Of a stretch of DNA of 31,941 nt, positions 6,808 through 28,088 are shown in pieces. The notes beneath the pieces are model-generated. The model did no database searches. It was not told where the DNA came from and saw only the letters and a program-made list of their open reading frames with translations. Position 1 is the stretch's first letter, and each line of letters starts with the position of its first letter. Position numbers and translations under genes: made by a program. The stretch is taken from positions 1 through 31,941 of the IMG/VR virus record IMGVR_UViG_3300030117_006269, one strand, 5' to 3'. Origin of the DNA: a virus.

Positions 6808-7255
6808 GTTGGCAGTAACAAAACTCTTTACATACTGAAAAACCACTAGCAGGTAATCCAACAGCTTCCCATTCATTCCACGTTCTTACTTGACCAACCC
6901 TTTTTTGACAATCTACGCATATTCTTGGAGTTCCAACAGATACCCATTGCATATCTACGCTATCCCCATAAATTCTATCCTGTCCAAGTCGAGATGCATG
7001 CATAGTTGCTGATACAATTCCACGTTTAAGGGTATTTCGAAATTCCCCGAAAATTCTTCCATTTGTGGCAAGATCATTTCCAAGAATATTAACGATTTCT
7101 CGCTCTGAAACTCCTGCGTTTCGCAATAGTGCAATTTCTCGTTCAATTCTTGTAACAAAGACATCAATTCCATATCCAATTCCGAGTGTTGCCCACAAGA
7201 GGACATTTTCATCTTCTTCTTTAAGATTTTGCGAATTTTCTGTCTCATCAGCCAT
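6764..7255 (-). CDS. MuF/SPP1 gp7-like minor head protein, short form
   Basis: 163 residues. After a helical N-terminus, the C-terminal half (93-152) has the pattern of phage head-morphogenesis (MuF) domains: C113-x2-C116, a G-x3-T-W-x2-W segment, GLPASG, then C142-x3-C146-x-C148 and QLIP, equivalent to the usual C-x2-C ... P-H-x2-C-R-C-x-L-P zinc-like motif. The His is replaced here by Ser/Val-Cys. Typical MuF proteins are longer, so this is a compact version. These proteins sit near the portal and are packaged in small copy number. It is last in the leftward block, with a TAATG overlap to the gp10-like gene. Confidence 0.65.
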   Translation of the reverse strand: MADETENSQNLKEEDENVLLWATLGIGYGIDVFVTRIEREIALLRNAGVSEREIVNILGNDLATNGRIFGEFRNTLKRGIVSATMHASRLGQDRIYGDSVDMQWVSVGTPRICVDCQKRVGQVRTWNEWEAVGLPASGFSVCKEFCYCQLIPSSISMPSSVTL

Positions 7256-7749
7256 TATTTTTTTAAATGTTTAGATATTAAACGATGTATTGCTTTTATA
7301 TGTGCTTTCATTCGTTCATTTGCACTTTTTCTTAAATTTCCTTTTGGTGTAAAAAATGGATTTCTAGCAGGAACAGGTTTCCCAATGATGTAAGGTGTAA
7401 ACTTTTTAGTCCATGAATTTCTTACAATTATATAATCGTTTAAATGATACTTTAAATACCCTGCTGCATGAACTTCTCCATCTATTGCCTTTATAGATGC
7501 TAAAGCATTTCCTGAATGTAAAAGAGCTTGTTGTTTTGTTCCTTTTCTTGCACCACTTCTTTTTTTAGAATAGCCTTTTCTTGCAATCTCCATAGTGCCT
7601 TCTGTAACATTCCTTAATTTGCCTTCTTTTATCATTCTTCTAGCATCTTCTGCTAATGTTTTTGCACCTAAATTGCTATAATGTTTTAAAATATCAGGCA
7701 GTTTTCGTTCTAACTTGCCAAAATCAAAAGTTGTTTTTATATCAATCAT
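7255..7749 (-). CDS. HK97 gp10/Mu gpG-like head-tail joining protein
   Basis: 164 residues, basic. The N-terminus (LERKLPDILKHYSNLGAKTL) is followed by a GTKQQALLHSGNALASIKA segment typical of phage virion-morphogenesis/tail-completion proteins, then strand-rich sequence and a P-A-R-N-P-F motif (near 129-134) as found in gp10-like families. These proteins act at the head-tail interface or tail terminator. It is located between the 78-aa gene (8-base overlap) and the MuF-like gene. Family call moderate. Confidence 0.6.
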   Translation of the reverse strand: MIDIKTTFDFGKLERKLPDILKHYSNLGAKTLAEDARRMIKEGKLRNVTEGTMEIARKGYSKKRSGARKGTKQQALLHSGNALASIKAIDGEVHAAGYLKYHLNDYIIVRNSWTKKFTPYIIGKPVPARNPFFTPKGNLRKSANERMKAHIKAIHRLISKHLKK

Positions 7750-7978
7750 CTATAATTTCTCTAGCAAAGTTCTCACCTAAATTTTTAGCTTTAGAATATC
7801 TAGGCATTTCTTTCATAATAATATTTTCAGCAAATTTTTCAGCCCACTCTCGTGGGTTGTCTAAAATTGTTTCAATATTACCCTCTAAACTTATATTAAA
7901 GTTCTGTAGCTCTTTGAGTTGCTTGACGTGCTGCTTCAAAGATTGAGAGTTTTTGGTTTCTTTGTTTGTTTGCGGCAA
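7742..7978 (-). CDS. Small conserved-type protein between portal and head-tail joining gene
   Basis: 78 residues. The C-terminal part (N-P-R-E-W-A-E-K-F-A-E, then Y-S-K-A-K-N-L-G-E-N-F-A) looks like short proteins often encoded beside portal genes. The start is unsettled: the longest frame begins at a TTG (7978) with no ribosome site, deep inside the portal gene (83-base overlap in another frame). Translation may instead begin by coupling near the portal stop. The end overlaps the next gene by 8 bases. Function unknown. Confidence 0.5.
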   Translation of the reverse strand: MPQTNKETKNSQSLKQHVKQLKELQNFNISLEGNIETILDNPREWAEKFAENIIMKEMPRYSKAKNLGENFAREIIDD

Positions 7979-9215
7979 TAGTTAGCTCTGCTTGTTCTAA
8001 AGTTAAGTCTTGGTTATATTCCATTAATAAACCAATTTCATCTATCAAATTTAGTTCTAATCTGTGTTTATCCCAAAGGATTTGATCTTGCACAGTTTTT
8101 GGATATTCAGGCTCTTTGAAATCTACACCCATTTCGCTAGGTAAGTTTACGCCAAAACTCCTCGCAATTTGACGTTCAACGTAATAAAAATCCTGCTCAT
8201 ACATTCTCCAAAGAGCCAAATCGTCTTGATAATCTTCATTTCTTTCTAAATCTTTTATCATCATTGAAACACCTGATGGCATTTCACCACCTTGTTCTGC
8301 CCATTGTATCGTAAGATGATTATTTTGAGCAACTAACTCTACAAGAAACTTAATATTTTCAATAACTTCATTTACATTACCTTGTGGTGCAACAATCTGA
8401 TAATTAGCACCTTCAGGAAGTTCTAAAGTAACATCTGAACCTGTACGCTGATTATTACCCATTTCTGCTCCTGTCATTACAGGTTGCCCAAACATTTGAA
8501 ATCGAAGTCCGAGTTGCATTTCTGTCATTGCAATATTTACATGCTCATTTGTATTAATAAGATCATTTGCACCTTCAACATAAAAACTATCTGTCTGATT
8601 TTCTCTGTGTGTAAATACAAATGGCAAAATACCATAATTGTGTGGTATTTCATCTAATATATTACCATCTTCATCCATGTGAACGTATTTTTCTGCATCC
8701 CAATATGCGTATTGCATTTTTGGAGCTTGTGAAGCATCTTCTACAGCTTGCAACATTGGATAAGATATAGAAATTGGAACAAATGGATCATCACCAAAAA
8801 AGACATGAAAAAAGTAAACAGGTCTATAGTCAAAAAAAGGAGAACCATTATTTACAGGAGACGATCCACCTTCGTTCCAAACAACTCTAGTTGCAATAGT
8901 ACCAACAAGTCTAGTCATACGCTCTACATGCTTCATTCTTGCAGGTTTATATATAGTAAGTCCATCGTACTTATCGCCTGCGTTTCTTACAGCACCTATC
9001 GTATATATTCTTGACATCTTGTTAATAAATTTGCGTGTAATATTGGCTTCCACAGGAGGTATTTCCCTAAAAGTAGCACCTGAAAACATACTTGATATAT
9101 AGTTGGCAGTATTATTACCATTATAATAGTCAAGTAGCTTTTCAATATGATCTTCACGACTTTTTGCGTTAGCTAGCTTTAATTCTTTTATTGATTCTTG
9201 TATTAAATCCATCAT
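7896..9215 (-). CDS. Phage portal protein
   Basis: 439 residues, within the portal size range. Features seen: an N-terminal DYYNGNN segment, a conserved IARKFINKM-like helix (TRKFINKMSRIY), a long loop-rich body, GILPFVFTHRENQ, a helix with NLINTNEHVNIAMTEMQL-type sequence (the usual clip/stem area), and a Gln/Glu-rich helical C-terminus. The dodecameric portal forms the DNA entry vertex and docks the terminase. It directly follows the terminase large subunit with an ATGA overlap, the normal order. Motif-level evidence alone is modest; position makes the call firm. Confidence 0.85.
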   Translation of the reverse strand: MMDLIQESIKELKLANAKSREDHIEKLLDYYNGNNTANYISSMFSGATFREIPPVEANITRKFINKMSRIYTIGAVRNAGDKYDGLTIYKPARMKHVERMTRLVGTIATRVVWNEGGSSPVNNGSPFFDYRPVYFFHVFFGDDPFVPISISYPMLQAVEDASQAPKMQYAYWDAEKYVHMDEDGNILDEIPHNYGILPFVFTHRENQTDSFYVEGANDLINTNEHVNIAMTEMQLGLRFQMFGQPVMTGAEMGNNQRTGSDVTLELPEGANYQIVAPQGNVNEVIENIKFLVELVAQNNHLTIQWAEQGGEMPSGVSMMIKDLERNEDYQDDLALWRMYEQDFYYVERQIARSFGVNLPSEMGVDFKEPEYPKTVQDQILWDKHRLELNLIDEIGLLMEYNQDLTLEQAELTIAANKQRNQKLSIFEAARQATQRATEL

Positions 9216-10519
9216 CTTTTAATTAATTTCACCTCTCTGTTTTTAATAGGAAACCTATTTATGAAAAAATATCTTACCATATCACAACCATGATCGTGAT
9301 AACCATCTTTTAAACTTTCAGGTTTAAGATCGCCTGTGCTTTCAGGGTATCTTAAACTTTCTAAATCTTCTTGTATGCCTTTACAATGTTCGTCAATATG
9401 AAATCTTCTACTACCATCAGCACTTTCTATAAATCCTCTAACATGACTTTCTCCTGATGGTTTATTACGAGAAGTACGATCTCTAACGGACTTAACTATT
9501 ATACCATGTCTGCGAAATATCTCTATATCTCCAAGCCCTGATTGCCCTTGTGCTTGTGAACCTGCAGGATCACCATAATATTCTACAACATTGTATTTTT
9601 TAGCCTTAATCAGCTCTACTAATGTATCAGTTTTTATGTTTTCTTCATGTATAATTTCGTCAATCATGTTAATATGTGATACACCACCGACTTTATATAC
9701 CTGAAACCAACCAACAGCAGGCATCCTATAGCCGAAGTCAATAGCACAGTAAGTATGAAAATTAGGGTTATAAGGATAATGACCAACATCAAGATTCCTA
9801 TCAAAAGGATATACCCTGCCTGCAAAAGAAGTAAATTTTGCTCCATATTCTTGATCAAAAACCTCCTTTGACATATTGCGTTTACGTTCAACTATTACAG
9901 GATTTTGTTCGCCTTTGGGATATGCGTAATGATTTTCCCATGCAGGAGCAGTATGTGATTCCCACATATTGTCCTTTTTGCCTAAAAGATATTTATCATA
10001 TACCCAATTAAAGCCTTGTGGAGTTGTAATAAAAATAGCTTTTCCATTTCTACGACCAACAGCAGGAGATATATACATATCCCATATTTCCTGTTTCATT
10101 TTAGCAGCCTCATCTAGCACTACTAAATCGTATTCATCACCAACTAAAGAATCAGGATTATCTGCTGACAATCCTTCAATCGAACTTCCCCATTTAAATC
10201 TTACATATTGATCTTTTTCAGATGATTTTACAACGCTAGACTTATTTGGTATTACCATTGTACGCCATATTTCATCAAATAGAAGTTTCGACTTTTTATA
10301 AGATAGCCCAACAAGTGCAACTTTCTTATTGGGCATAGATGCAACAAACGATGCCTCTTTAGCAGAAGCAAATGTTTTTCCATAACCACGACCACATACA
10401 ATAACAAAAAAACGAGAACTCTTTTTCTTTGGAAAGTGCAACTTGGATTGACCACGATGAGGTTTATACCCCATAAAGTCAAACCATTCTCTTTTGTATG
10501 TAATAAGGCTTTTATCCAA
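9212..10519 (-). CDS. terL: Terminase large subunit
   Basis: 435 residues, normal length. ATPase: Walker A CGRGYGKT (42-49), Walker B DLVVLDEA (131-138) with catalytic Glu137, coupling motif ITTPQG (164-169). Nuclease (RNase H fold): D261 in AIDFGYR, D317 in YGDPAG, D409/D413 in HDHGCD. It cuts concatemers and pumps DNA into the prohead through the portal encoded just downstream. The only available start is TTG at 10519 (a stop lies four codons upstream), with no clear ribosome site. It is transcribed away from the capsid genes, leftward from the region at 10520-10673. Confidence 0.95.
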   Translation of the reverse strand: MDKSLITYKREWFDFMGYKPHRGQSKLHFPKKKSSRFFVIVCGRGYGKTFASAKEASFVASMPNKKVALVGLSYKKSKLLFDEIWRTMVIPNKSSVVKSSEKDQYVRFKWGSSIEGLSADNPDSLVGDEYDLVVLDEAAKMKQEIWDMYISPAVGRRNGKAIFITTPQGFNWVYDKYLLGKKDNMWESHTAPAWENHYAYPKGEQNPVIVERKRNMSKEVFDQEYGAKFTSFAGRVYPFDRNLDVGHYPYNPNFHTYCAIDFGYRMPAVGWFQVYKVGGVSHINMIDEIIHEENIKTDTLVELIKAKKYNVVEYYGDPAGSQAQGQSGLGDIEIFRRHGIIVKSVRDRTSRNKPSGESHVRGFIESADGSRRFHIDEHCKGIQEDLESLRYPESTGDLKPESLKDGYHDHGCDMVRYFFINRFPIKNREVKLIKR

Positions 10520-10673
10520 ATTTTAATGCAATTAAATTTTAAGGTTATCAACAAAAGTATCGTAAATACTTGCATTTTAAAACTACATTAATTTAAGTTA
10601 AGGCATCTGAATTGTGCAAGAAAATGTGGATAATGTGTGGATAACTTGTGCATAACTAAAACAAAGGAAAGAT
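10520..10673. other. Divergent intergenic region with phased DnaA boxes
   Basis: TGTGGATAA at 10625-10633 and 10636-10644 (exact reverse complements of the consensus TTATCCACA), then TGTGCATAA at 10647-10655. All three share orientation and start exactly 11 bases apart. A fourth degenerate element, TGTGCAAGA, begins at 10613. TTATCAACA (10545-10553) is a one-mismatch box on the other strand, and CGTAAATACT (10561-10570) is shared with 6006-6015. It lies between the divergent terminase and scaffold genes: candidate replication origin and/or bidirectional late promoter. Confidence 0.65.
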
Positions 10674-11192
10674 ATGTCCGAAGAAAAAGTACAAGAGAAC
10701 GTACAAGAAAGCCTAGAATTACAGGTAGAGAATAAACCTGAAAGTGCCGACAATGGTTTATTGCAGGAAGTAATGTCTAAAAAAGCTACAATTAAAGAAT
10801 TGCAAGCTAAATTAGCTGATTATGAATCTGCAAATGAAAAAGCAAGGCAAAAACAATTATCAGAAGATGGCAAAAAAGATGAACTCATAGCTGAACTTAA
10901 TTCTAAAGTTGAGCATTTGTCAGGCGAATATAATCGTCTTTCAAAGTATGAAGAAGATGAAAAAACTAACCTCATCGCTTCTATTGCATCTGATGACAAG
11001 GAAGCAGAAGTTCTTTCAAAAGAAAGTCTTTCTACGCTTCGATTATTAAAAAGTAAAATTACTTCAACAGTTTCTGAAACTCCTCCTGCTCGTGGATCGG
11101 TTGGAAATCAACTTCCTACTGATTTTACACAAATGAAAAAAGCAGACAGAAAAAGAAATTGGAAAAGTATTTTAAATCAATATTCAAAATAA
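10674..11192 (+). CDS. Capsid scaffold-like protein
   Basis: 172 residues, acidic and Glu/Lys-rich. Most of residues 25-90 should form a coiled coil (ATIKELQAKLADYESANEK, KKDELIAELNSKVEHL). The C-terminus is basic (KKADRKRNWKSIL), as in scaffold proteins that contact the coat protein. No protease is seen nearby. The ribosome site ACAAAGGAAAGAT is good. First gene of the rightward structural operon, 57 bases before the major capsid gene. The scaffold call rests on position and composition. Confidence 0.75.
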   Translation: MSEEKVQENVQESLELQVENKPESADNGLLQEVMSKKATIKELQAKLADYESANEKARQKQLSEDGKKDELIAELNSKVEHLSGEYNRLSKYEEDEKTNLIASIASDDKEAEVLSKESLSTLRLLKSKITSTVSETPPARGSVGNQLPTDFTQMKKADRKRNWKSILNQYSK

Positions 11193-11249
11193 AATTAACT
11201 CTACTTGAAGGTCTTTTGACAGATGATAGAGAGTAAAATGGAGTAAAAA

Positions 11250-12308
11250 ATGGCTTTAAGTAATCCTTTAGCTTCTAATATGCTAATTGGTGGTGTAGAT
11301 AGCTCAAGCACTATGGGTGCTAATGCAGATACACTTGCTTTAGAGTTTGTACCTGAAGTATGGGGGCAAGCAATATTAGAATCTTTTAATAAAAATACAG
11401 TAATGACACAATGTGGAACTAATTTATCAGGAATTGCACAATCGCAAGGTGGGGATAAAATTAAATTGCCTCATGTTGGAGTTCCAACAGTAAAGGCTGT
11501 AACACAAAATGCAGATGTTTTAGAACAAGACAATTCAGGCACAGATACAGGTGTTGATACAGAACTTGTTATAGATCAGCATTATGCAGCACCTTTATGG
11601 CTTCCTGATGCAGTAAAAGTTCAAGCTGCTTATGATATGTTTGAAGTATATTCAGGTCAGCTTGGATATGCTATTGCTAAAGCAGTTGATAATCATCTAA
11701 TGTACACAGTTGTAGCAAAATTAACATCTGTTCTTGGAAGTGGAGATGGTGTAAATGCTAATACTACAATGAATGTAGAAGTTGGAGAGGCTTTAACTCC
11801 TGCTCATCTTGCTTCATTAATGGGTATTATAGCAGGTGAAACAGGAAATGTTGATGGATGGAAGATTGTACTTTCACCAAAAGCGTATGGATCATTAGCA
11901 AATACAAGTAACTTTGGAAATTCATGGACACAAGGTCTTGCAGGATTAAATTCTGATTTGCAAGGTGGAAATGGAATTGTTGGTAGCTTGCTTGGTATGC
12001 CTGTTATTGCTTCAAATAGTGTGTTTATGGATGTTGGCTCTGTTGCACAAGCAGCAGGTGCAGGCATACATACTGCATGGGATGGTTTTGATACAGGTGC
12101 ATCAACAGATGATGATTATTTGAGAGGTTTTGCAATCCATGATAGTGCTTTGTATTGGGCTATTCAGGATCAAAACATCAAAAGGTCTTATCAGCATGTT
12201 AAGATGTCTGATCTTATTTCTGTTGATTCTCTTTATGGAGCAGTTGCAAGAGCAGCAGATAGTGCAGGAAATAGAAGAATAATTGCATTAACAGATAGTA
12301 AAACTTAA
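11250..12308 (+). CDS. Major capsid protein (HK97-fold, inferred)
   Basis: 352 residues. N-terminal arm rich in Ala/Ser/Asn, FVPEVWGQAILESFNKNTVM (typical coat-protein opening), KIKLPHVGVPTV, DNHLMYTVVAKL helix, GWKIVLSPKAYGSLANTSNF, an exposed GLAGLNSDLQGGNGIVGSLL stretch and a final strand-rich part. Its size, its place right after the scaffold and the GGAG-TAAAAA ribosome site fit the most highly expressed virion gene. Which coat subfamily it belongs to needs a profile search. Confidence 0.88.
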   Translation: MALSNPLASNMLIGGVDSSSTMGANADTLALEFVPEVWGQAILESFNKNTVMTQCGTNLSGIAQSQGGDKIKLPHVGVPTVKAVTQNADVLEQDNSGTDTGVDTELVIDQHYAAPLWLPDAVKVQAAYDMFEVYSGQLGYAIAKAVDNHLMYTVVAKLTSVLGSGDGVNANTTMNVEVGEALTPAHLASLMGIIAGETGNVDGWKIVLSPKAYGSLANTSNFGNSWTQGLAGLNSDLQGGNGIVGSLLGMPVIASNSVFMDVGSVAQAAGAGIHTAWDGFDTGASTDDDYLRGFAIHDSALYWAIQDQNIKRSYQHVKMSDLISVDSLYGAVARAADSAGNRRIIALTDSKT

Positions 12309-16298: not shown

Positions 16299-17822
16299 AT
16301 GCCAAGCTTTACAACAACAACAAGTATAACAACAGGAAGGGGAGATACTTTAACTGCAACAAAAACAGGTGAGTATGAAGATGTTTTTAATGTAAGGCAA
16401 GAATGTGATAATGTTAATGGTTTTATTACATTGGTGCTTGGTGGTTCAAAAGGTCAATCTGTTTTAGAAGATTGTAAAACATTGATAATTAAAAACACAG
16501 GTATAGTGTCTGCTGAAGTTCAAATAAAATCAGAGCAATGGTCACAAGGAACTCCTGATACTAATACAGATGGATCAGGTGGTGTTTCACATCAAACATT
16601 TTTACTAGCTGTTGGTGATTATATGATGCTACCAAATTTTAGGCAAATAAACTATGGCTCTACTGATGGTTCAGGTGCAAATGCTTATCAACTTACAAAC
16701 CAAGCACCTGATTCTAATATGTATGTTGCAGTTAATAACCCTGCAGGTGGTGATGCACAATTAGTTGCAGAAGCTATTGATGGAACAGAAACAGAAATAG
16801 ATGTAGATGATGCAGATTTTTTTAAAGTAGGTGATTTAATAAGAGTAGAAAATGAAATAATGGAAGTAGAAAGTATAAGTTCTGATACACTTACAGTAAT
16901 AAGAGGAACACATGGATCAGCTAAAGCATCACATTCTGATAATACTGCAATTAGATTTCCATTCTTTAATGCTTATGCAGACTTTGATAAGTTTTCTACT
17001 GCACAAACAGATGCATCAGGTAGATTTAAAGCTATGAACTTTTTTGGTTATGGTAGAACTGAAGGTGAAGCAGATGGAATTGTAGCAGGTTCAGTTTCAG
17101 GCAAGTTTTATGAAGCAGGGTATCAAGAACTAGGGTTATCAGGGATAACAGCATCAACATCTACAGGTTTAGATGCATCAACTGCTTATGCTTTTGATAT
17201 AGCAGTAGATGGTGGATCAGATCATACACTAACATTTACAACAGATTCTTCTAATGGTAATTTTGGTGGTGTAAATGGATTAATACAAAAGATTCAAGCA
17301 GCACTAGATGCACAATTTTATACAACAAGTTCTAATCTTTTAAATAAAAAAGTTTTTGTTGGTATAGTAGATGGTGATATAAGATTTACATCAGGACAAC
17401 ATTTATCAACATCAGCAATATCAATAACTGCACCTGCAAGTGGAACTACACCTTTTGGAGTTGGTGCTATTAGTATGGCTGTAGGTGATATAGAAGCTGC
17501 TATTCCTGCAAAATTACCTGTAGATACAATAAATGATAAAAGATCAAATGTATCAGTTCCAAATACTACTGCATTTTTTTATGATGATGGTCATGGTAAT
17601 ATAGTAGGTGCATGCACAGGAACAATAAATTATGAAACAGGTGCTATAGATTTGCAAGGCTGTCCACCTAATGCAAACTTTGTTGTAGATGCTAATTATG
17701 GATCAGCACATTCAGGTGGTAATGAATATGCTAATACAGTAGGTAATAGCTTGGTTTCAGTAGCAGGAAGAAGCGTTAATAGTAAAATTAATGCAATAGT
17801 AGAAGTAATAGGATTAAAGTAA
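16299..17822 (+). CDS. Large virion structural protein with an embedded surface module
   Basis: 507 residues, almost all beta-rich and low in Lys. N-terminal domain (1-150) of FTTTTSITTGRGDTLTATKT type; residues 156-220 carry a small module (KVGDLIRVENEIMEV ... TVIRGTHGSAKASHSDNTAI) that recurs in the connector protein at 18776; the C-terminal half has repeated Gly/Ser/Thr strands (VDGGSDHTLTFTTDSSNGNF). Probably a fibre, decoration or whisker protein. GGAGAAGA precedes the ATG. Confidence 0.55.
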   Translation: MPSFTTTTSITTGRGDTLTATKTGEYEDVFNVRQECDNVNGFITLVLGGSKGQSVLEDCKTLIIKNTGIVSAEVQIKSEQWSQGTPDTNTDGSGGVSHQTFLLAVGDYMMLPNFRQINYGSTDGSGANAYQLTNQAPDSNMYVAVNNPAGGDAQLVAEAIDGTETEIDVDDADFFKVGDLIRVENEIMEVESISSDTLTVIRGTHGSAKASHSDNTAIRFPFFNAYADFDKFSTAQTDASGRFKAMNFFGYGRTEGEADGIVAGSVSGKFYEAGYQELGLSGITASTSTGLDASTAYAFDIAVDGGSDHTLTFTTDSSNGNFGGVNGLIQKIQAALDAQFYTTSSNLLNKKVFVGIVDGDIRFTSGQHLSTSAISITAPASGTTPFGVGAISMAVGDIEAAIPAKLPVDTINDKRSNVSVPNTTAFFYDDGHGNIVGACTGTINYETGAIDLQGCPPNANFVVDANYGSAHSGGNEYANTVGNSLVSVAGRSVNSKINAIVEVIGLK

Positions 17823-17831
17823 GGAGTAAAT

Positions 17832-17906
17832 ATGAAAAAAGGTATGGGTTACGGCAAGAAAAAAAAGAAAATGACTAAAAAGAAAAAACGTAGAAGGAGT
17901 TATTAA
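17832..17906 (+). CDS. 24-aa ultra-basic peptide
   Basis: Begins MKKGMGYG and continues with Lys and Arg runs to KKRRRSY: 14 of 24 residues are Lys/Arg, none acidic. TAAGGAGTAAAT is a consensus ribosome site, and its own last codons carry AAGGAG for the next gene, whose ATG follows the stop codon directly. Too short for automated callers, but the initiation signal and context support it. Likely binds nucleic acid or an acidic protein surface. Confidence 0.6.
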   Translation: MKKGMGYGKKKKKMTKKKKRRRSY

Positions 17907-18092
17907 ATGCCTAAAACATCTTATGTAAAAGGTGTTAGCATGGCAGGTTTGACAACTAGGCAAAAATCATCTATGCGTAGACACAAAAATCATCATACTG
18001 CAAAACATCTTAAAGCTATGGTAGCTGCTATGAGAAAAGGAAAAACTTTTACACAATCTCATAAAATGGCAATGAAAAAAGTAGGTAGGTGA
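17907..18092 (+). CDS. Small basic His-rich protein, 61 aa
   Basis: 16 Lys/Arg, five His and no acidic residue. Core GLTTRQKSSMRRHKNHHTAK then HLKAMVAAMRKGKTFTQSHK, two likely amphipathic basic helices; the G-K-T-F-x-Q-S-H-x2-A tail is common in small phage proteins of this kind. AGAAGGAG precedes the ATG. Second gene of the basic island. Confidence 0.65.
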   Translation: MPKTSYVKGVSMAGLTTRQKSSMRRHKNHHTAKHLKAMVAAMRKGKTFTQSHKMAMKKVGR

Positions 18093-18093
18093 A

Positions 18094-18351
18094 ATGGCTA
18101 AATATCAAGGCAGATCAGTTAGATTAAATAAGCCTAGCAGAATTACCAAAGGTCAAGCAGGCTATGGTCGTAAAAAGTTTAAAGTATTTGTAAAGTCAGG
18201 CTCAAAAGTAAAAAAAGTTATGTTTGGCGATCCAAATATGCGAATTAAAAAATCTAGTCCTGCTAGAAGAAAATCATTTAGAGCAAGGCACAGATGTGCT
18301 ACTGCAACAGATAAAACAACAGCAAGATATTGGTCGTGTAAAAAATGGTAA
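18094..18351 (+). CDS. Small basic protein with RARH...RYWSC motif, 85 aa
   Basis: N-terminal basic part, then VMFGDPNMRIKKSSPARRKS (42-61) and FRARHRC ... TTARYWSCKKW. I recognise this as a widespread unnamed phage protein type whose usual form has a Cys after RARH and a C-terminal YWSC, a possible metal or disulfide pair (C68 and C82). Only two acidic residues. It overlaps the next gene by 7 bases. Function unknown; often near head genes in other phages. Confidence 0.75.
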   Translation: MAKYQGRSVRLNKPSRITKGQAGYGRKKFKVFVKSGSKVKKVMFGDPNMRIKKSSPARRKSFRARHRCATATDKTTARYWSCKKW

Positions 18352-18530
18352 AAAGAAGAAAAAAAAGCACAGTTAATAAAGCAGGTAATTATACAAAACC
18401 TGCTATGAGAAGAAGATTGTTTTACAGAATAAAAGCAGGCAGTAAAGGTGGTAGAGCAGGTCAATGGAGTGCTAGAAAAGCACAAATGTTGGCAAGAGCA
18501 TATAAAAAAGCAGGTGGAGGTTACAGGTAA
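18345..18530 (+). CDS. Small basic protein with GQWSARKAQ motif, 61 aa
   Basis: No acidic residue at all. NKAGNYTKPAMRRRLFYRIK and GSKGGRAGQWSARKAQMLAR followed by YKKAGGGY match another common unnamed phage family (the usual form is K-A-G-x-W-S-A-R-K-A-Q-x-L-A with a GGGY end). Overlaps both neighbours. Likely nucleic-acid binding by charge. Confidence 0.75.
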   Translation: MVKRRKKSTVNKAGNYTKPAMRRRLFYRIKAGSKGGRAGQWSARKAQMLARAYKKAGGGYR

Positions 18531-18775
18531 TGGCACTTAAAAAATCACAGAGATCGTTAAAAAAATGGACTAAACAAGATTGGGGCTATCTGACTAAAGG
18601 CGATGAAAAAAAGCCTAGATCAAAAAGAGGTAGATATTTGCCAAAATCTGTAAGAACTTCATTGACTAAAAGTCAAAAAGCTTATGAAAATAGAAAAAAA
18701 AGAGCTGCTAGCAGGAGTGGCAAACAAAGAGCAAGTTATTCAAAAAAAGTTAGAAGAAAAATGAGAGGTAAATAA
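18530..18775 (+). CDS. Small basic protein with KKWTKQ and RYLP motifs, 81 aa
   Basis: SLKKWTKQDWGYLTKGDEKK and R-G-R-Y-L-P-K-S-V-R resemble a third widespread unnamed phage type (LKKWTxQxW ... GxRYLP). The C-terminus is a Lys/Arg/Ser run (KRAASRSGKQRASYSKKVRR) like a histone tail. It ends exactly before the connector gene ATG. Last gene of the basic island. Confidence 0.75.
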   Translation: MALKKSQRSLKKWTKQDWGYLTKGDEKKPRSKRGRYLPKSVRTSLTKSQKAYENRKKRAASRSGKQRASYSKKVRRKMRGK

Positions 18776-20011
18776 ATGGCTACTGCACCAATATATTGCA
18801 CGCATAAAGAACTTAAAAGAGTGTATCCTAATATAGATGCATTTGATACTAAAACTCCTATTTATGGTTGGGAATTAGGATTTACAGATGCCTATGATTC
18901 TACTATAGATATATATTATGCTAATAATACAGGATTAGTAACTGATTTATTTTGGGATGGTGCAAAGCTACCAAAGCTTAAATTAGTAGATAGTGATACT
19001 TCTAACAGAACTACATTAGGTGGTTCAATGGATGAAGATGCAGTTACAATGACAGTAGGCTCATCTACAGGACTTGCAACAGGTGATATTATAAAAGTAA
19101 ATGATGAATATATGATTATTACATCAATAGATAGTGGAACAGTAATAGGTGTAACTGCTGTAGCTAGGGGTATGTTTGGAACTACTGCTGTAAAACATGT
19201 TATAGGTAGTGGTGTAAAGCTTATAGTAGATGCAAGTGAAAGCATACAAGATGCAAGTTCAGCTTCTGATGGTGCTACTTTTTTTTATGATGCACTATTA
19301 GATTTGTGTGTAATTTTTGTAGATACTAAAAATCCTGCTGATTATTTAATAGAGGCAGGAGAAAATTTTAGTAGCATGGTTACGCAGGTTAGAACAGATG
19401 CAAGTAGATATTTAGATAGTAAGCTTGATCCTAATTTGCCTCGTGAACAGCTAAAAGATAAAAGTGGTAATTTTGATTACATGATTATTCGTAGCACGGC
19501 ACTAATCGCAGCAGCTTTTCTTATTCGTTCTACTGATCCAACAAATGCAACTGCTACTGCTCTTATGGAAGAAGCACAAGGAAATATTGATGCCCTTAAT
19601 GATGGCAAAGCTGCCTTATCTTGGCAAACTACTCGTGATGCTTCTCGTGGCATTATAAGAGATGTAACCTACACAGATGGTAAAATTAGACCTGTAGATA
19701 CAAGAGGTATGTGGAATGGTACTTTTGATTTGGTAAAGGTGCAAATAATTACAGGTGGCGTGCTAGGAACTGCAACCTATTCAGTATTTACTAAAAATTC
19801 AGATACATTAAAAACTAATCAGGTAGTAACTGCAGAAAAAATAAATGGCGACTATCAGCCTTTAGCAGGTGGATTACAGATTAGGTTTGCAGGTGAAACA
19901 GATACAACGGAAGCAGCTGCAAATGATGAATGGGAAATAGAAGTTATGGGTGCAACTGAACATATTGATGCTTCAGGTGTAAAAAGCGTAAATAATTCTA
20001 GGTGGCTGTAA
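18776..20011 (+). CDS. Head-tail connector-like protein with inserted module
   Basis: 411 residues. The start (IYCTHKELKRVYPNIDAF) and a later helical part (VRTDASRYLDSKLDPNLP ... MIIRSTALIAAAFLIRSTD, ALMEEAQGNIDALNDGKAAL) resemble DUF1320/gp6-type connector proteins, which are normally ~150 residues. Here residues about 85-150 insert the module also seen in the 507-aa protein (GDIIKVNDEYMIITSI ... ARGMFGTTAVKH), and a C-terminal beta domain is added. It probably sits at the neck. Overlaps the next gene by 10 bases. Confidence 0.6.
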   Translation: MATAPIYCTHKELKRVYPNIDAFDTKTPIYGWELGFTDAYDSTIDIYYANNTGLVTDLFWDGAKLPKLKLVDSDTSNRTTLGGSMDEDAVTMTVGSSTGLATGDIIKVNDEYMIITSIDSGTVIGVTAVARGMFGTTAVKHVIGSGVKLIVDASESIQDASSASDGATFFYDALLDLCVIFVDTKNPADYLIEAGENFSSMVTQVRTDASRYLDSKLDPNLPREQLKDKSGNFDYMIIRSTALIAAAFLIRSTDPTNATATALMEEAQGNIDALNDGKAALSWQTTRDASRGIIRDVTYTDGKIRPVDTRGMWNGTFDLVKVQIITGGVLGTATYSVFTKNSDTLKTNQVVTAEKINGDYQPLAGGLQIRFAGETDTTEAAANDEWEIEVMGATEHIDASGVKSVNNSRWL

Positions 20012-20436
20012 CATTTGTAAATAATTGGAAGAATATTGCCGACAAGCTCCAAAATAAATTTAGAGCTGAATTTGGCAACACCATGTCAGTTTATATTGGT
20101 GAAGGCGAATATAGTGGAAACCAATTTCTTAAAATCATACCTACCACAAATGAAATTTTAGAAAGATATGTTCATGCAGAATTAAGACAATATAATTTTC
20201 AATTAGTATATTATTTTATGGATGCCAACATAAAAAAAAGTGCATTAACACAGATGTTTCGTGTTTTATCAAGAATAGAATCCCTAATTGCTCAAAATAG
20301 AAACTTAACTTTAGCTGATAGTACAGAATCTATAAGTGGCAGAATTACAGATTATGAAATTATAGAAGGCGAAGAAGGATTTGAATATTTAGTTGAAATG
20401 AATTTTAATTGTCTACATCTAGGAAATATTAGCTAA
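20002..20436 (+). CDS. Tail completion protein-like, copy A
   Basis: 144 residues, GTG start at 20002 inside the end of the connector gene. It is a paralogue of the next gene: both begin (A/S)VTF-x-NNW, share GNQ-x-L-x-I-x-P, a RQ-x5-YF section, KKS-x3-Q-x2-R-x-LSR-x-E, a TL-x-D element and EYLV-x3-(F/Y)-x-CLH near the end. Position between connector and tail tube suggests a tail terminator or neck role. Confidence 0.65.
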   Translation: MAVTFVNNWKNIADKLQNKFRAEFGNTMSVYIGEGEYSGNQFLKIIPTTNEILERYVHAELRQYNFQLVYYFMDANIKKSALTQMFRVLSRIESLIAQNRNLTLADSTESISGRITDYEIIEGEEGFEYLVEMNFNCLHLGNIS

Positions 20437-20870
20437 TGTCAGTAACTTTTACCAATAATTGGGATAACGTGCTAAATAAACTAGAAAGCATTGTTAAAAC
20501 AGAGTTTAAATCTACTTTAAAAACATATCGTGGATTAGGAAATGTTATGGAAGGCAATCAATATTTAAGAATATCTCCTGTTGGTAGTGAGCTAATTGAT
20601 TATTCAGATAATTTAGAAACAAGACAATTTTCTATTGATTTATTTTTATATTTTAAAATAATTAATGCTAAAAAAAGTGATACAGATCAAGTTTTACGCA
20701 TTTTGTCAAGATTGGAAACTATTATAGGCAATAATATCACAATGACATTATCAGATAATACAGTAGCTTATAATTGCAGAATAGAATCTTCTGAATTAGA
20801 CACAACTAATCCTGAAGAATATTTAGTTAATTTAGATTATAAGTGTTTGCATCAAAATAGTAGTGCATAA
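20436..20870 (+). CDS. Tail completion protein-like, copy B
   Basis: 144 residues, the same length as copy A and aligned without large gaps. Differences concentrate in the middle (YRGLGNVMEGNQYLRISP), while the aromatic core is kept. TAATG overlap with copy A. Ring proteins at the head-tail junction sometimes occur as related pairs; a hetero-oligomer or subfunctionalised duplicate is plausible but unproven. Confidence 0.65.
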   Translation: MSVTFTNNWDNVLNKLESIVKTEFKSTLKTYRGLGNVMEGNQYLRISPVGSELIDYSDNLETRQFSIDLFLYFKIINAKKSDTDQVLRILSRLETIIGNNITMTLSDNTVAYNCRIESSELDTTNPEEYLVNLDYKCLHQNSSA

Positions 20871-22494: not shown

Positions 22495-22919
22495 ACATTC
22501 ATTCGGATTGGTGTGGAGGCTGTCAGTACCATACATATCCGTATGATGCACAAGTTCCTGTTTTAATTAATGGAGTTCGTGAAACACGCACATTTAAATG
22601 TGATGAAGATGTATGGCAAGTAATTGATTTATTAATATTAGAGGTAAAACAATCGAATGAAAAAGGTAAAGAGTTTGATATTGCGAAGTCGGTCAATGCT
22701 CAATTACCTTTTTTTTGTTGTAGAAACATTGTTCAATCGAGAAAACATCAAAAAGACATTGAGAGGTATATCTATTGTGAGCAGTTTGGTATATCACCTT
22801 ATAAAGGAAGTTATGGAGAACAGCCTGCAAAGTGGGTTGATAAAGCGTTTATCATTAAAAATGCACTCGCTAAAAAACAAAGGGATGAGATAGATGGCAG
22901 AAGAAAAAATAATAATTAA
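22443..22919 (+). CDS. Tail assembly chaperone T-type extension, expressed by -1 frameshift
   Basis: 158 codons in the -1 frame with no ATG, GTG or TTG anywhere, so independent initiation is very unlikely. The product would continue the G protein as DARTYLNGGRERLQLEINIH, then W-C-G-G-C-Q-Y-H, and hold six Cys (extension positions 24, 27, 53, 92, 93, 112) and a Trp/Lys-rich end. It overlaps the tape-measure start by 26 bases. In lambda-like phages the G-T fusion coats the tape measure during tail assembly. The Cys pairs hint at metal binding, not standard for lambda T. Confidence 0.7.
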   Translation, partial: DARTYLNGGRERLQLEINIHSDWCGGCQYHTYPYDAQVPVLINGVRETRTFKCDEDVWQVIDLLILEVKQSNEKGKEFDIAKSVNAQLPFFCCRNIVQSRKHQKDIERYIYCEQFGISPYKGSYGEQPAKWVDKAFIIKNALAKKQRDEIDGRRKNNN

Positions 22920-24600
22920 TTTTAAAGCTGTAGGAAATAAAGAGCTAACTCGTGCTGTAAGAGAATTAGATAATGCTACTCGTTCATTGCAAGGAAAGCA
23001 GGAAAAATATAATGAACAATCTATTACAGGCATTAGAAATAACAGGCTTCAAAGTAATACTTTTGCTACGCTTCGTTCTAAAATTTTACTTGTAAATTTT
23101 GCTTTGGCAATGGGTGTTAGACAAATGATTCAATTTACAAGACAAGCTGCTAGTTTGCAAGATGTAAATCGTGCATTTAATACATTGCAAGGTGGTGCAA
23201 ACAATGGTACTTTAGCTATAGATAAATTAAAAAAAGCTACTGATGGTACTGTATCAGAATTTGATTTATTTCAACAAGCAAATAATGCAATGATACTAGG
23301 AATTACTAAAAATTCAAGCGAAATGGCTGAAATGTTTGACATAGCACAACGACTTGGTCAAGCTTTAGGTAGAGATACTGCATCATCTGTTGAATCACTT
23401 ATCACAGGTATTGGTCGTCAATCTCGTCTTATGCTTGATAACATTGGTATTATAGTAAAATCAGATGAAGCATATGAAGATTATGCAGAAAAGTTAGGAA
23501 TATCTGCTGAAAAACTAACTGATGCACAAAAGAAAACTGCTTTTTTAGAAGCTACGATGGAATCTGCAAGAGAAAAAGTTGCTAGTTTAGGCGATGAACA
23601 GTTAAGTAATTCACAAAAAATGGAAAAAATGCGTGTAGCAGTTATAGAAGCATCTAATGCACTTGGTGAAGCACTTATGCCTTTAGTAATTCCATTAGCT
23701 AAAGGATTAGAATTACTTGCAAGAGGTGCAGAGGCAGTATTTGATGCTTTTAGTGGAGCTAGTATAAAGGTAGAATTTGAAGCATTGGTAGAAGAATTAG
23801 CTTTTTTAGAATCAGCCGAAAAAGATTTATTAAGCAGATTAGAACAATTTGGTGAATTTAAACCACCTATGATTGCAGGAATGTCTGATGAATTTGTTTC
23901 AAAGTTTGGAGATATGGATTCAAATATACTAGGTATGCTTGAAACATTAGAAATGTTAAGAAATCAAATAAAGCAATTAAAAGAAAGTATTGAAAATGAA
24001 TTAGATGGAGTTGTAGAAAAAACAGGTCTTGCTAAAGCATTAGAAGATATAAATAAATTATTTGATGAGCAAATTAAAAAAGCTAAAGAATCAAGCGAAG
24101 CAATTTCTCAATCTGCAGCAAAACAAGGTATGTCTTATAAAAATGCAGGTCTAGCAGCACAAAACGCAGCAGCACAAGTAATACAAGCAGAAATGGTAAA
24201 AGCTATTGGTAGCTTTATGTCAGATGCTTTTGCTAAATTTGGTATTGCAGGAGTTGTTCTTGCAGCAGGTGCATCTGCAGCAGTTGGCTCTTTGTTTGGT
24301 GGTGCAGTAACAGAAGCAAAAAAATTAAAATTTGAACAAGGTGGTCTTATTGGTGGTCGCAGACATTCACAGGGTGGAACTATTATAGAGGCAGAACAGG
24401 GTGAATTTGTCATGCAAAGAAGTGCAGTACAATCTATTGGAATTGAAAATCTTAATCGTATGAATCAAGGTGGAGGTGGTGGTGCATCAGTAACAGTAAA
24501 TGTATCAGGTAATGTTATGAGCCAAGATTATGTAGAAGGTGAATTAGCAGAGCAAATAAAAGAAGCTATTAGAAAAGGTAATGATTTTGGAGTTTCATAA
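22894..24600 (+). CDS. Tape measure protein
   Basis: 568 residues; by the usual 1.5 angstrom per residue it would set a tail of about 85 nm. N-terminal part typical of tape measures (ELDNATRSLQGKQEKYNEQS), a hydrophobic segment (LRSKILLVNFALAMGVRQMI), the conserved FNTLQGGANNGTLAIDKLKK region, long helices, a hydrophobic Ala/Gly segment (GIAGVVLAAGASAAVGSLFG, about 449-468) and an ending F-E-Q-G-G-L-I-G-G-R-R-H-S-Q-G-G seen in many tape measures. AAGGGATGAG precedes the ATG. It abuts the next gene. Confidence 0.9.
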   Translation: MAEEKIIINFKAVGNKELTRAVRELDNATRSLQGKQEKYNEQSITGIRNNRLQSNTFATLRSKILLVNFALAMGVRQMIQFTRQAASLQDVNRAFNTLQGGANNGTLAIDKLKKATDGTVSEFDLFQQANNAMILGITKNSSEMAEMFDIAQRLGQALGRDTASSVESLITGIGRQSRLMLDNIGIIVKSDEAYEDYAEKLGISAEKLTDAQKKTAFLEATMESAREKVASLGDEQLSNSQKMEKMRVAVIEASNALGEALMPLVIPLAKGLELLARGAEAVFDAFSGASIKVEFEALVEELAFLESAEKDLLSRLEQFGEFKPPMIAGMSDEFVSKFGDMDSNILGMLETLEMLRNQIKQLKESIENELDGVVEKTGLAKALEDINKLFDEQIKKAKESSEAISQSAAKQGMSYKNAGLAAQNAAAQVIQAEMVKAIGSFMSDAFAKFGIAGVVLAAGASAAVGSLFGGAVTEAKKLKFEQGGLIGGRRHSQGGTIIEAEQGEFVMQRSAVQSIGIENLNRMNQGGGGGASVTVNVSGNVMSQDYVEGELAEQIKEAIRKGNDFGVS

Positions 24601-27438
24601 ATGGCAATAGGAATACCTGCAAATTTTAATAATGATATACAAAGCAATCATACTAGTATTGTTCCATTAATTGTTATAAGAACTTATGGTCAAGACAATG
24701 CTATTTATTTATCAACAAATAGTGGAAATATATTGACAGGATTAGGTGTAAATTTTAAGCCACTTTTATTAAATGTTCCATCTTTAAAAGAATCAATAGA
24801 TTTAGAAACAAGAAAATACAAAATAAGTTCAGTTACTTTAGATTGCAGTAATGTAGAATATCAAGGAACAAGATTATCAGATGAAATATATGAAAAATTT
24901 GGTTCTTTGATGAATACAGAGATTAGAATATTTTGGTCATCACCATCAACTACAGATTTAGGTTTTTTTGATATTGTTCCTTATGATCCTGCTGATCCTA
25001 ATCAGTATTTTAGAGCATTTCAAGTATATACAGGAACAGTTAGAAGATATTCACATACAGATGAAAAAGTAAAAATAGAGTTAGAAGATAGATCACAAGC
25101 ATATTTACATAAAGATTTGCCTTTGCCTGAAAATTATTTAGGAACAGGTAAAGATATACCTGATAAATATAAAAATAAACCTATTCCTATGGTTTATGGA
25201 TATGTTGATAAAAGTCCACTTTTGCAAAAATATTCAGAATCAAGTGTAGATGATGATTTGCTTGGACAAATTAAAGGTATTCCTGATATACAATTAGTTC
25301 AAGAAATTGATACAGATAATTGTGAATATTTAAGTCCTGCAATTTATGTTTTTAATAATGATGGTTATAATCATGTTTTACAAGACCAAGAAAAAATTTT
25401 AATTAAAGATGAAGATGGTTTTTCTACTCATAATATTCCTAAACAATATTATATAAGTAACAATATTATTACTTTGCCATCTATTTATAATTTTGATTTT
25501 ACACTTAATGATGATATGGATGATATAGATGCTGCTTTAGAAAATACAAATGTTAAAAATTTAATATCATCAAGATTAATTCAATGTTATAGAGAAAATT
25601 TAATTTCTCATTGGTTAGTTAATCAAATATCAGATGGTGGTATTGGCTATGGTATAACCTCTGAAGAATTTACTGTTGGTGGTGTTAGTGGAAAACCATC
25701 AGGGATTAATAATAATTTTACTTTTGGATATATAGGTGGAAATGGAGGAGAGCAAGGTGTTATAAGTGCAAATATAAATATTTCTGATTTAGCTAATATT
25801 GATTTTCAAACAGGTATTTTAAAAATAATATTTCCTGAAATTAAAGATTTTGACAGTAGTTCAAAAATAGCTTCTGCATTAACAGGTGAATTAGGTGCAT
25901 CTTTTGAATCAGGAGGTGCATCATATCAAGTACAAATTAATTTTTATGATAAAACAGGTTTGAGAGATAATTTAGTTTTAGCAGGAAGCTCTAGTGGGGG
26001 AGTGTTTACAACTCCTGAAATTATAACAACAGCAGATACAAGTTTTAATAATATTTATGATTTTCCAAATAATGAATATACTTTTAAACTAGCACTTACT
26101 TCTATACAAGGTGCAACAAATGCTACATTTAAATTATCTTCCCTTGATGGAAATGAATTAAAACATAAATATTGGTATAATATTAGTTTTAATGATAAAA
26201 TATTTTATGGAAATATTGCAGGTAGATTATCATCAGGAGTAGGAGTTTCACCAACTGCACCTAGTGTAATATCAAATATAATACAAAATGAATTAAATGT
26301 GGATACAGGTAATATAGCAACCTTGCCTACTGAATATTCAGATATGCAATATGCATTTACTGTTCATAAAAAAATTAATTCTAAAAAATTAATAGAAAGT
26401 ATAGCATCAGCATCACCTTTTATACCACATTTTAATAATCAAGGTAGTTTTAAGTTTAATACAATTCCATCTAGTAATCCAAGTTCTGATCATATAATAC
26501 AAGAATCTAAAATTATAGATTTTTCTTATAAAAGAACAAAAATTGAAGATGTAAAAACAAAAGTAGAATTAAAATATAAAATAGATTATGCTAGAGATGA
26601 ATTTGGTAAATCTGTAATAAAGCAAGAAAATAATGCAGATTATTTTGATTATTATGGATTTATAGATAACAATGGAGATGCTATAACTGATCATTCTTTA
26701 TCTACATTAGCAGTTGATGATGATAGGGGTAAATACATAAGAGATGATTTAACTGCTGATAAATTTTGTCAATGGTTATTAGATTATCATAAAAATCAGC
26801 ATTTAATTATGACAGTAAAATTACCATTGTCAGTTGGTTTACCTATTGAGGTTGGTGATATAGTAGAGTTTGACAAGCTACTAGGAGATGTAAAACCTTA
26901 TGGAATAGATTATAAAAATAATTTTATTCTTAATAATCAAAAATTATTTCCTAATTTTATTGTAACATCTACTAATAAAACTTTAGATATGGTTACTATA
27001 GAATGTGAGCAATTACATGAACTTCTTATAAATTTTTTAACTCCTCAATGGACTACTTTATATGGTGAATCTTCTGATGTTTTTCAAGGTGCTGCTATTA
27101 ATACTCCTACAAATTTTGCATATGGTAATATAACAGATACAGCAGATGGTTGGCAAGACAGATTAAAAGCTGAAATCCCATCTATAAAATATATTGGAGA
27201 GTTTAAATTTACAGGTTTAGCAGGTGCAACTCCAATATTTCAATTAACAGGTAATACACAATATTACAATTATGAAGATGATAGTGGTAGTTTAGGTGGC
27301 ATATTAGGATTTTTTGAAGGAGGTGCTATTAGTAATCCTGCAGATGTATGGGTATATGGAATTATATTAGAAGGTGATAGTGAAGTTACCACTAATTATT
27401 TTTCAGGAAACATGAATGTTTTTGGTGAACCAATATGA
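24601..27438 (+). CDS. Tail tip / baseplate hub protein
   Basis: 945 residues, the largest gene here. N-terminal region (SIVPLIVIRTYGQDNAIYLS, later YKISSVTLDCSNVEYQGTRL) and the Y-G-Y-V-D-K-S-P-L-L element resemble distal tail proteins of environmental siphophages. The centre (350-540) is strand-rich, Gly/Asn-rich, maybe carbohydrate-binding. The part near 750-830 (GLPIEVGDIVEFDKLLGDVK, TLDMVTIECEQLHELL) looks like a tail-hub beta domain. Directly downstream of the tape measure, where hub and adhesion proteins lie. Confidence 0.65.
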   Translation: MAIGIPANFNNDIQSNHTSIVPLIVIRTYGQDNAIYLSTNSGNILTGLGVNFKPLLLNVPSLKESIDLETRKYKISSVTLDCSNVEYQGTRLSDEIYEKFGSLMNTEIRIFWSSPSTTDLGFFDIVPYDPADPNQYFRAFQVYTGTVRRYSHTDEKVKIELEDRSQAYLHKDLPLPENYLGTGKDIPDKYKNKPIPMVYGYVDKSPLLQKYSESSVDDDLLGQIKGIPDIQLVQEIDTDNCEYLSPAIYVFNNDGYNHVLQDQEKILIKDEDGFSTHNIPKQYYISNNIITLPSIYNFDFTLNDDMDDIDAALENTNVKNLISSRLIQCYRENLISHWLVNQISDGGIGYGITSEEFTVGGVSGKPSGINNNFTFGYIGGNGGEQGVISANINISDLANIDFQTGILKIIFPEIKDFDSSSKIASALTGELGASFESGGASYQVQINFYDKTGLRDNLVLAGSSSGGVFTTPEIITTADTSFNNIYDFPNNEYTFKLALTSIQGATNATFKLSSLDGNELKHKYWYNISFNDKIFYGNIAGRLSSGVGVSPTAPSVISNIIQNELNVDTGNIATLPTEYSDMQYAFTVHKKINSKKLIESIASASPFIPHFNNQGSFKFNTIPSSNPSSDHIIQESKIIDFSYKRTKIEDVKTKVELKYKIDYARDEFGKSVIKQENNADYFDYYGFIDNNGDAITDHSLSTLAVDDDRGKYIRDDLTADKFCQWLLDYHKNQHLIMTVKLPLSVGLPIEVGDIVEFDKLLGDVKPYGIDYKNNFILNNQKLFPNFIVTSTNKTLDMVTIECEQLHELLINFLTPQWTTLYGESSDVFQGAAINTPTNFAYGNITDTADGWQDRLKAEIPSIKYIGEFKFTGLAGATPIFQLTGNTQYYNYEDDSGSLGGILGFFEGGAISNPADVWVYGIILEGDSEVTTNYFSGNMNVFGEPI

Positions 27439-28088
27439 TAATAAATTCAGCAAATATAAAACCTGCAAAAGTAGCAGATAAACATTATCTAGGTACTTTA
27501 AGCTATACCAATGGTCAAAGAGTAGGTGTAATTAGAAAAAATGGTATTATTATAGATAGCACTTTAATAATTCCATCAATAGTAGATGGTGTATTATCAG
27601 TAGAAAATATTACATTTAATTTAGGCATTGAAACAGATCAAGATAATGAAAAAATATATTACAACAATGCTAGTTTAAAAGTAAAAACCTATAATCAAGG
27701 TATAGATATATTATTAGATAAAATTAATATACCTTTAGAAGTAGATACAGATGCTACGCAGCAGGTATTAGAATTTGTTAATTTTGATACAGAATTGTTT
27801 AAAATACAAGAAGTAGATCAGGATCAAACATTTGATATAATATTTCAGGTTATTGTTAATAACTCTATAGCACAAGAAATATTTGTTAGATTTGAATATA
27901 AGCCATCAAATAATTTAGGTGATGTAAATGGTGATGGTGTTATAGATTTAAGGGATTTAGTAGCATTATCAGACCATGTAGTGCAAGGTAAAGAAATTAA
28001 TAAACCTGAATATGCTGATATAAATAAAACTGATGAAATAACAAAGCATGATGTAATAGAATTGAGCAGGAGAATTTTACATGGCTAA
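27435..28088 (+). CDS. Tail protein with C-terminal dockerin-like domain
   Basis: 217 residues. Residues 1-158 are strand-rich and unassigned. Residues 161-217 look like a type I dockerin: the first calcium loop is perfect (D163, N165, D167, G168, I170, D174), followed by a helix (DLVALSDHVVQG). A second duplicated half (D195-I-N-K-T-D-E-I-T-K-H-D206, then VIELSRRIL) has lost one ligand (Thr199 instead of Asp). In cellulosomes such pairs bind cohesin domains in a Ca-dependent way. ATGA overlap with the hub gene, 8-base overlap with the next gene, so clearly part of the tail operon. Confidence 0.7.
   Translation: MIINSANIKPAKVADKHYLGTLSYTNGQRVGVIRKNGIIIDSTLIIPSIVDGVLSVENITFNLGIETDQDNEKIYYNNASLKVKTYNQGIDILLDKINIPLEVDTDATQQVLEFVNFDTELFKIQEVDQDQTFDIIFQVIVNNSIAQEIFVRFEYKPSNNLGDVNGDGVIDLRDLVALSDHVVQGKEINKPEYADINKTDEITKHDVIELSRRILHG

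Follow-up and report, generated by a model that had tools for sequence, protein, structure and literature searches.

Five consecutive small genes (g1 to g5) in the virion operon of the marine phage DNA analyzed herein encode strongly cationic mini-proteins and belong to families that travel together as a mosaic cassette. In the lineage of the window (the whole analyzed stretch of 31,941 nucleotides), the cassette can be exchanged and is apparently dispensable; it is classed as accessory because near relatives have part of the set or none that was found. Its last two genes are best described, from their sequence matches, as a split DUF5872-type protein. Three things appear to be new within what was searched: the mosaic assembly of the cassette, the split and highly charged DUF5872 pair, and the connection between g3 and a predicted prohead protease.

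Layout, composition and authenticity of the island

The five genes and the two proteins bordering their slot are listed below.

16299..17822, + strand: 507-aa putative virion protein that borders the slot upstream; partial match to phrog_4406 (virion structural protein), E 3e-8
17832..17906, + strand: g1, 24 aa, 14 K+R, 0 D+E; Lys/Arg-rich peptide that opens the cassette
17907..18092, + strand: g2, 61 aa, 16 K+R, 0 D+E; HHTxKHLxxM...GKTFTQSHKxAMKKVGK family; phrog_31838, E 8e-7
18094..18351, + strand: g3, 85 aa, 27 K+R, 2 D+E; RARH...YWSC..W domain; phrog_7595, E 8e-17
18345..18530, + strand: g4, 61 aa, 20 K+R, 0 D+E; GQWSARKAQ...GGGY; phrog_17747, E 3e-33
18530..18775, + strand: g5, 81 aa, 31 K+R, 4 D+E; SLKKWTKQ...RYLP...GKQ; phrog_14910, E 1e-14
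18776..20011, + strand: downstream border of the slot; 411 aa, in a structural position, called 'neck' in the first-pass annotation; anchor for the slot analysis

The first-pass annotation described five small basic genes, tightly coupled and placed in a structural operon. The coordinates, lengths and composition were exact. Only 6 of the 312 residues across the five coupled genes are acidic, with none in g1, g2 or g4, and the isoelectric points are 11.4-12. At an assumed expectation of 11% acidic residues, the probability of 6 or fewer among 312 is about 8e-10. The proteins flanking the island have 9-14% acidic residues, and the four larger island proteins rank as the top four in cationic charge among all open frames of at least 50 aa in the window. 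The tight coupling is borne out by abutting or overlapping stop and start codons: the junctions are an abutting TAA-ATG, a 1-nt gap, a 7-nt overlap, a 1-nt overlap, and again an abutting TAA-ATG into the 411-aa gene. The operon placement is correct because the island is enclosed by the genes for the major head protein (11250-12308) and the tape measure (22894-24600). An AAGGAG site precedes g1; promoters and terminators around the island were not in excess of those in shuffled sequence. No PHROG gave the 411-aa product the name of a neck protein. In most loci the upstream border of the slot is formed by relatives of about 510 aa.

Other features of the window are also recorded here. The genes of the head module (6764-12308) are divided between the strands: the minus strand carries the terminase large subunit together with a portal-like and two small genes, and the plus strand those for the scaffold-like and major head proteins. 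Residues 163-237 of the 16299-17822 product and residues 89-150 of the 18776-20011 product both match positions of about 1291-1365 in phrog_4406, as if a shared domain had been inserted; direct BLASTP of one product against the other showed no shared domain. Adjacent 144-aa tandem paralogues, 39% identical, are encoded at 20002-20436 and 20436-20870, in a head-tail joining position. A 217-aa protein (27435-28088) ends in a dockerin-like repeat recognized by eye (GDVNGDGVIDLRDLVALSDHV), which is unusual among phage tail genes.

The median dN/dS of g2 to g5, measured against relatives more than 70% identical, is 0.11-0.15 (0.15 for g2). Homologues of g2 to g5 were found in large numbers in IMG/VR contigs, with the families present in hundreds of contigs from aquatic phages; the g2 alignment has 11 invariant residues, 4 of them His. 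The dN/dS values and the conservation rule out chance open frames, and judged by these measures g2 to g5 are genuine genes; so is g1, by the recurrence of such a peptide at this position in many phages. The claim that the proteins carry motifs of widespread phage families without known function also held, the families being phrog_31838, phrog_7595, phrog_17747 and phrog_14910. Profile comparisons of g2, g3 and g4/g5 as mutual paralogues were negative.

Co-occurrence, fusions and the accessory slot

Co-occurrence was measured in loci around an anchor gene. Loci anchored on g5, with at least 3 kb on each side, contained g4 in 32/32, g3 in 30/32 and g2 in 13/32 cases, and loci anchored on g4 contained g5 in 26/26 and g3 in 18/26; both sets had been selected because they resemble the window, and some of their contigs are related. 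For this reason, the co-occurrence was retested with a distant g3 anchor, 36-38% identical to the g3 of the window. Here, g4 and g5 were each found in 15 of 28 loci, mostly no more than 1.5 kb away and often at 250-500 bases. The gene orders include g3 g4 g5, g4 g5 g3, g2 g3 g4 g5, g4 g5 g2 g3, and g3 g2 g4 g5. Among isolates, g3, g4 and g5 are present in HMO-2011 and the roseophage CRP-13, and g4 and g5 in S-EIV1 and the Methylophilales phage MEP402. Fused neighboring genes suggest parts that act jointly. Fusions were found of g4 with g5 (L056:2475-2939, L218, L220, L263, L225), of g5 with g3 (L045, L072, L027), and of a g1-like stretch with g2 (L264, L026). The fusion at L225:5498-6643 joins g4, g5, a DUF6321 domain and a GTYGSKVGRPKKK stretch in 381 aa, and is nearly a one-chain island. 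The first-pass annotation had named the joint travel of the motif families as a test, with families that do not travel together as the argument against its proposal; since they do co-occur, in shuffled orders and with fusions, that argument falls away, and the coupling proves tighter than could be judged from the letters of the window.

The content of the slot varies among relatives of the 411-aa protein. The contents were a basic peptide alone, g3 alone, a peptide with g3, g4 g5 g3, peptide g2 x g4 g5, peptide g3 x g2, or nothing that was found. A 22-aa GTYGKKVGRP peptide occupies the slot in record G002, and some 'empty' slots may harbor very short peptides. In G001 (35.8 kb) and G008 (30.7 kb), records that are possibly incomplete, g2, g3 and g5 were nowhere found. 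Another basic mini-protein of 48 aa (KKVSWTYGGKRYSGTLIPSRETKTHRFARTANGKIKKIRKRG), absent from the window, lies in the slot of two relatives (L348:3623-3769 and L350:9855-10001). Island genes share 80-98% identity in phages whose flanking proteins are often just 30-65% identical. A swap of a single gene is seen in L192, where g4 has 98% identity and g3 35%. Across about 40 diverse phages, the neighbors of the g4-g5 pair are mostly late genes, with terminase subunits, endolysin, portal, adaptor and tail among them.

Relatives of the individual proteins

Relatives of g1 were collected as 66 unique basic peptides of 20-45 aa that lie directly before a g2-g5 gene with a Shine-Dalgarno-like site ahead. 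A Lys/Arg tail is common to them, and 59 of the 66 have Y-[GH] near the start. GRP occurs in 21 of the 66, typically as GTYGKKRGRPKKK, compared with a mean of 1.1 and a maximum of 5 after shuffling. The AT-hook is a minor-groove DNA-binding motif, and we take the G-R-P of the g1 relatives to be its core. The likeness to AT-hook peptides lies in this core, which many g1 relatives share; the difference is that the best g1 relative reaches 14.0 bits with the Pfam AT_hook model (PF02178), below the cut-off of 17.4, and that the core is absent from the g1 of the window. For these two reasons, the AT-hook is treated as a lead and not as a family membership of g1.

The g3 protein was modeled by AlphaFold2 from 34 sequences as a small beta-plus-alpha domain with a pLDDT of 92.8 and a pTM of 0.77. 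By this model, g3 is a confidently folded domain and not a disordered protamine. Sequence and fold searches with g3 against solved structures (PDB) gave no match. Among predicted viral structures, the fold matched proteins named XkdF and ChaB as well as ORF125 of Vibrio phage ICP1, and a Tunisvirus protein matched weakly. ICP1 ORF125 (L438:9709-10545) carries Peptidase_S78_2 at residues 36-160 (E 6.6e-10) and a g3-like C-terminus, which is supported by sequence motifs and the predicted fold. In the head operon of ICP1, the portal and scaffold genes flank the gene, and the protein is a predicted capsid maturation protease in published work (PMC9040626, PMC7567579). In the parts of the ICP1 literature that were consulted, a g3-like domain on this protease was not found mentioned. 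The motif and fold likeness to ORF125 (Gp125) ties g3, as a predicted relationship, to head assembly in one lineage; the domain in ICP1 is the tail of a protease within the head operon, whereas g3 in the window is free-standing among basic mini-proteins. The domain also occurs elsewhere: directly behind a cytidyltransferase gene in HTVC008M, fused to a cytidyltransferase-like protein in L137, and, in HTVC111P, within a group of DNA-binding and methyltransferase genes that precedes the head genes.

A weak match to DUF5754 (PF19058) was found in 12 of 39 g3 relatives (E 0.1 or lower, best 0.004). DUF5754 corresponds to Tlr6F (PMC12220804), which has been reported from almost every polinton-like virus as well as from several virophages, many giant viruses and some phages, and for whose role no clue was available (PMC4642659). 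These matches, together with the weak structural match in Tunisvirus, suggest that g3 is probably related to the Tlr6F/DUF5754 of giant and polinton-like viruses, although the g3 of the window itself scores 12.2 bits, far under the Pfam cut-off of 27.4.

Bacterial homologues of g4 and g5 were found by scanning bacterial genomes with the S-EIV1 protein. Each is a single chain of about 185 aa, and the carriers include Micromonospora, Salinispora, Geodermatophilus, Mycobacterium, Rubrobacter relatives, Pontibacter and Nostoc; the first part resembles g4 and the second g5, with the order kept. Because the S-EIV1 protein had been the query of the scan, the profile tests were redone without the S-EIV1 rows. 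HHalign then gave a probability of 99.4 (E 5e-22) for g4 and 98.8 (E 9e-17) for g5, with shuffled columns below 1. An HMM of the cellular fusion scored 68.9 bits on the g4 of the window and 47.0 bits on its g5. The bacterial proteins in turn match DUF5872 (PF19197) at E 4e-6 to 7e-3, mostly just under the cut-off and one above it. The identity as a split DUF5872-type protein therefore comes from matches to a bacterial protein that itself matches DUF5872. Neither g4 nor g5 of the window alone gave a Pfam match, so they are called homologues of the DUF5872 halves and not filed members. Many carriers of the cellular fusion come from desiccation- or radiation-tolerant groups (Rubrobacter relatives, Geodermatophilus, Blastococcus, Modestobacter, Pontibacter).

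Both halves of the DUF5872 proteins of Actinobacteria, Rubrobacter, Bacteroidota and Cyanobacteria are homologous, in order, to g4 and g5. The chain is single in bacteria and in some phages, where the two halves are fused, and is divided between two overlapping genes in the window. The phage pair also differs in its charge (about +0.33 vs +0.03 per residue) and in having no Rho_N-like C-terminus. Rho_N is a nucleic-acid-binding fold, and it is found on some cellular homologues, above the Pfam cut-off in L373. A viral scan with a Rubrobacter DUF5872 protein returned two loci only. In the algal virus CpV-BQ1, both DUF5872 and DUF5754 are annotated (PMC12085832).

The g4+g5 region of the bacterial proteins is 21% basic and 18% acidic, with a net charge of +0.03 per residue; in phages, the averages for the g4 and g5 families are +0.24 to +0.32. 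The phage versions are without most of the acidic residues of their cellular homologues. In every G+C class, loci above 42% G+C included, the g2-g5 families have a net charge per residue of +0.19 to +0.32; other open frames of at least 150 aa in the same loci (n=974) average -0.03 (sd 0.045). A+T-rich coding was rejected as the source of the charge, as the neighbors have normal numbers of acidic residues and loci above 42% G+C retain the charge. Whether the phages lost acidic residues or the cells gained them, the phage g4 and g5 would have the expected look of a protein bound to a polyanion, and other causes are possible.

With g3, g5 or the cellular fusion as the query, PDB sequence searches gave nothing significant. 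A fold search likened residues 121-180 of the cellular fusion, a part absent from the phage proteins, to the helical end of Ctf4/AND-1 with Z 7-9; this likeness was set aside because such Z values are common there. The 'HVA1 family' label of a CRP-901 homologue was not reproduced by Pfam.

Proposed role and competing explanations

We tentatively favor the reading that g1 to g5 are accessory, late, low-copy DNA-binding proteins of particle assembly, a role that we consider possible rather than probable. In the proposed mechanism, the mosaic cassette in its fixed slot of the virion operon would have its cationic mini-proteins expressed late. They would bind nucleic acid without strong sequence specificity and work jointly on newly made phage DNA around packaging, with the folded g3 domain perhaps directing the set to the assembling head or its DNA. 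The DNA would be organized, protected or tethered, and a low-copy entry into the head may follow. DNA binding around assembly is favored because the neighbors are late genes, the charge appears selected, sister peptides of g1 are AT-hook-like and Rho_N is a partner domain; DNA binding plausibly gains indirect support from these features. The clustering and fusion of the families and the place of g3 at the end of ICP1 ORF125, in a head operon, also speak for the favored reading. Points against the favored reading are that the g1 of the window has no GRP, that near relatives exist without the set, and that g3 occurs beside or on cytidyltransferases and, in HTVC111P, ahead of the head genes. Positive charge alone predicts DNA binding weakly.

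The possible dose was estimated for a 40-kb genome and 415 sets, one per major capsid subunit, as a typical T=7 head has 415 such subunits. This number of sets would offset 53% of the phosphates at a cost of about 15 MDa of protein on top of about 26 MDa of DNA; with 50 sets, the share falls to 6%. Basic proteins are not known as large contributors to phage DNA neutralization, and the dense packing leaves little room (PMC3281028). A low-copy organizing, protecting or tethering role is favored because bulk neutralization does not fit, the head having no space for the doses that it would take. The charge balance in the capsid that the first-pass annotation had suggested is implausible in bulk, given the added mass and the near relatives that are without part or all of the set.

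The label 'protamine/histone-like' was not sustained either. Protamines are Arg-rich and have no stable fold; the island families are mostly Lys-rich, with R/(R+K) of 0.25-0.38 in the A+T-rich class, g3 is confidently folded, and the set is apparently dispensable. The g1 peptide alone would fit disorder. No protamine family was matched, and Pfam and PHROG scans as well as PDB sequence and fold searches gave no match to histone, HU or H-NS-like families, an absent match being no proof. The idea of a system of its own gives way to parts that are known, unnamed families. The island is encoded with virion genes, and g3 alone can lie elsewhere. Virion-internal basic proteins of DNA viruses, such as the DNA-binding proteins of PBCV-1 (PMC3281028) and the protamine-like proteins of other viruses (PMC6163548), are tied to packaged DNA, and the likeness to them is an analogy only. 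The same analogy extends to T4 internal proteins. No sequence relation to any of these was shown, and several PBCV-1 examples are about 60-70 kDa.

Several features of the island would also suit proteins that coat DNA inside the cell, shielding phage DNA from host nucleases or defense or silencing host DNA, while staying unpackaged and being transcribed late only incidentally. Accessory phage genes are often dispensable, exchangeable cassettes in a fixed slot; the hints of DNA binding (Rho_N on the cellular homologues, GRP in the g1 relatives) would serve such coating proteins, and g3 and g4/g5 are found away from head genes too. The tight coupling within the late operon, the mostly late neighbors and the presence of g3 on a predicted prohead protease make this reading doubtful. 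That same protease, with g3 as the C-terminus of ICP1 ORF125, would suit head-assembly adaptors. In that reading, the small basic proteins would have scaffold, portal or terminase as acidic binding partners instead of DNA, and g3 would dock proteins like the ICP1 protease into the prohead. The structural match to a protein named XkdF and the position between capsid and tail genes agree with adaptors; it is nevertheless unlikely that this is their function, as the g3 domain is also found on or beside cytidyltransferases and the bacterial g4+g5 fusions have no sign of a head function.

The island might instead be a hot spot that gathers unrelated basic genes with no shared function, their charge being the product of A+T-rich, lysine-biased coding. 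The variable content and order and the 31% G+C of the A+T-rich window would be expected in that case. This explanation is improbable and already weakened: the families fuse with one another, the clustering holds with the distant g3 anchor, loci above 42% G+C keep the charge, and the depletion is specific to acidic residues. Proteins that bind RNA or ribosomes and tune late-infection translation would resemble small ribosomal proteins in size and charge, and Rho_N domains can bind RNA. Pfam and PHROG scans matched no ribosomal protein family and the context is late and structural, which leaves this explanation very improbable.

Returning to the favored low-copy DNA-binding role, a bolder form of it can be stated. 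Many aquatic tailed phages may carry an exchangeable 'nucleoid kit' that dresses their DNA during packaging, part of which would be a split, supercharged cellular protein, with mini-domains also found in algal giant and polinton-like viruses. Taken as a whole, this form is rather unlikely. Trypsin yields no peptide of 7-35 residues from g1 and only one from g5. Trypsin-based proteomics would largely miss the island proteins, and this may explain the lack of virion reports.

The findings provide a concrete partner set: a probable Tlr6F relative that lies beside or fused with the DUF5872 halves, near an AT-hook-like family, and that also occurs on a predicted protease. If these proteins do act on DNA at packaging, they would be a common marine exception to the essentially naked DNA of tailed phages.
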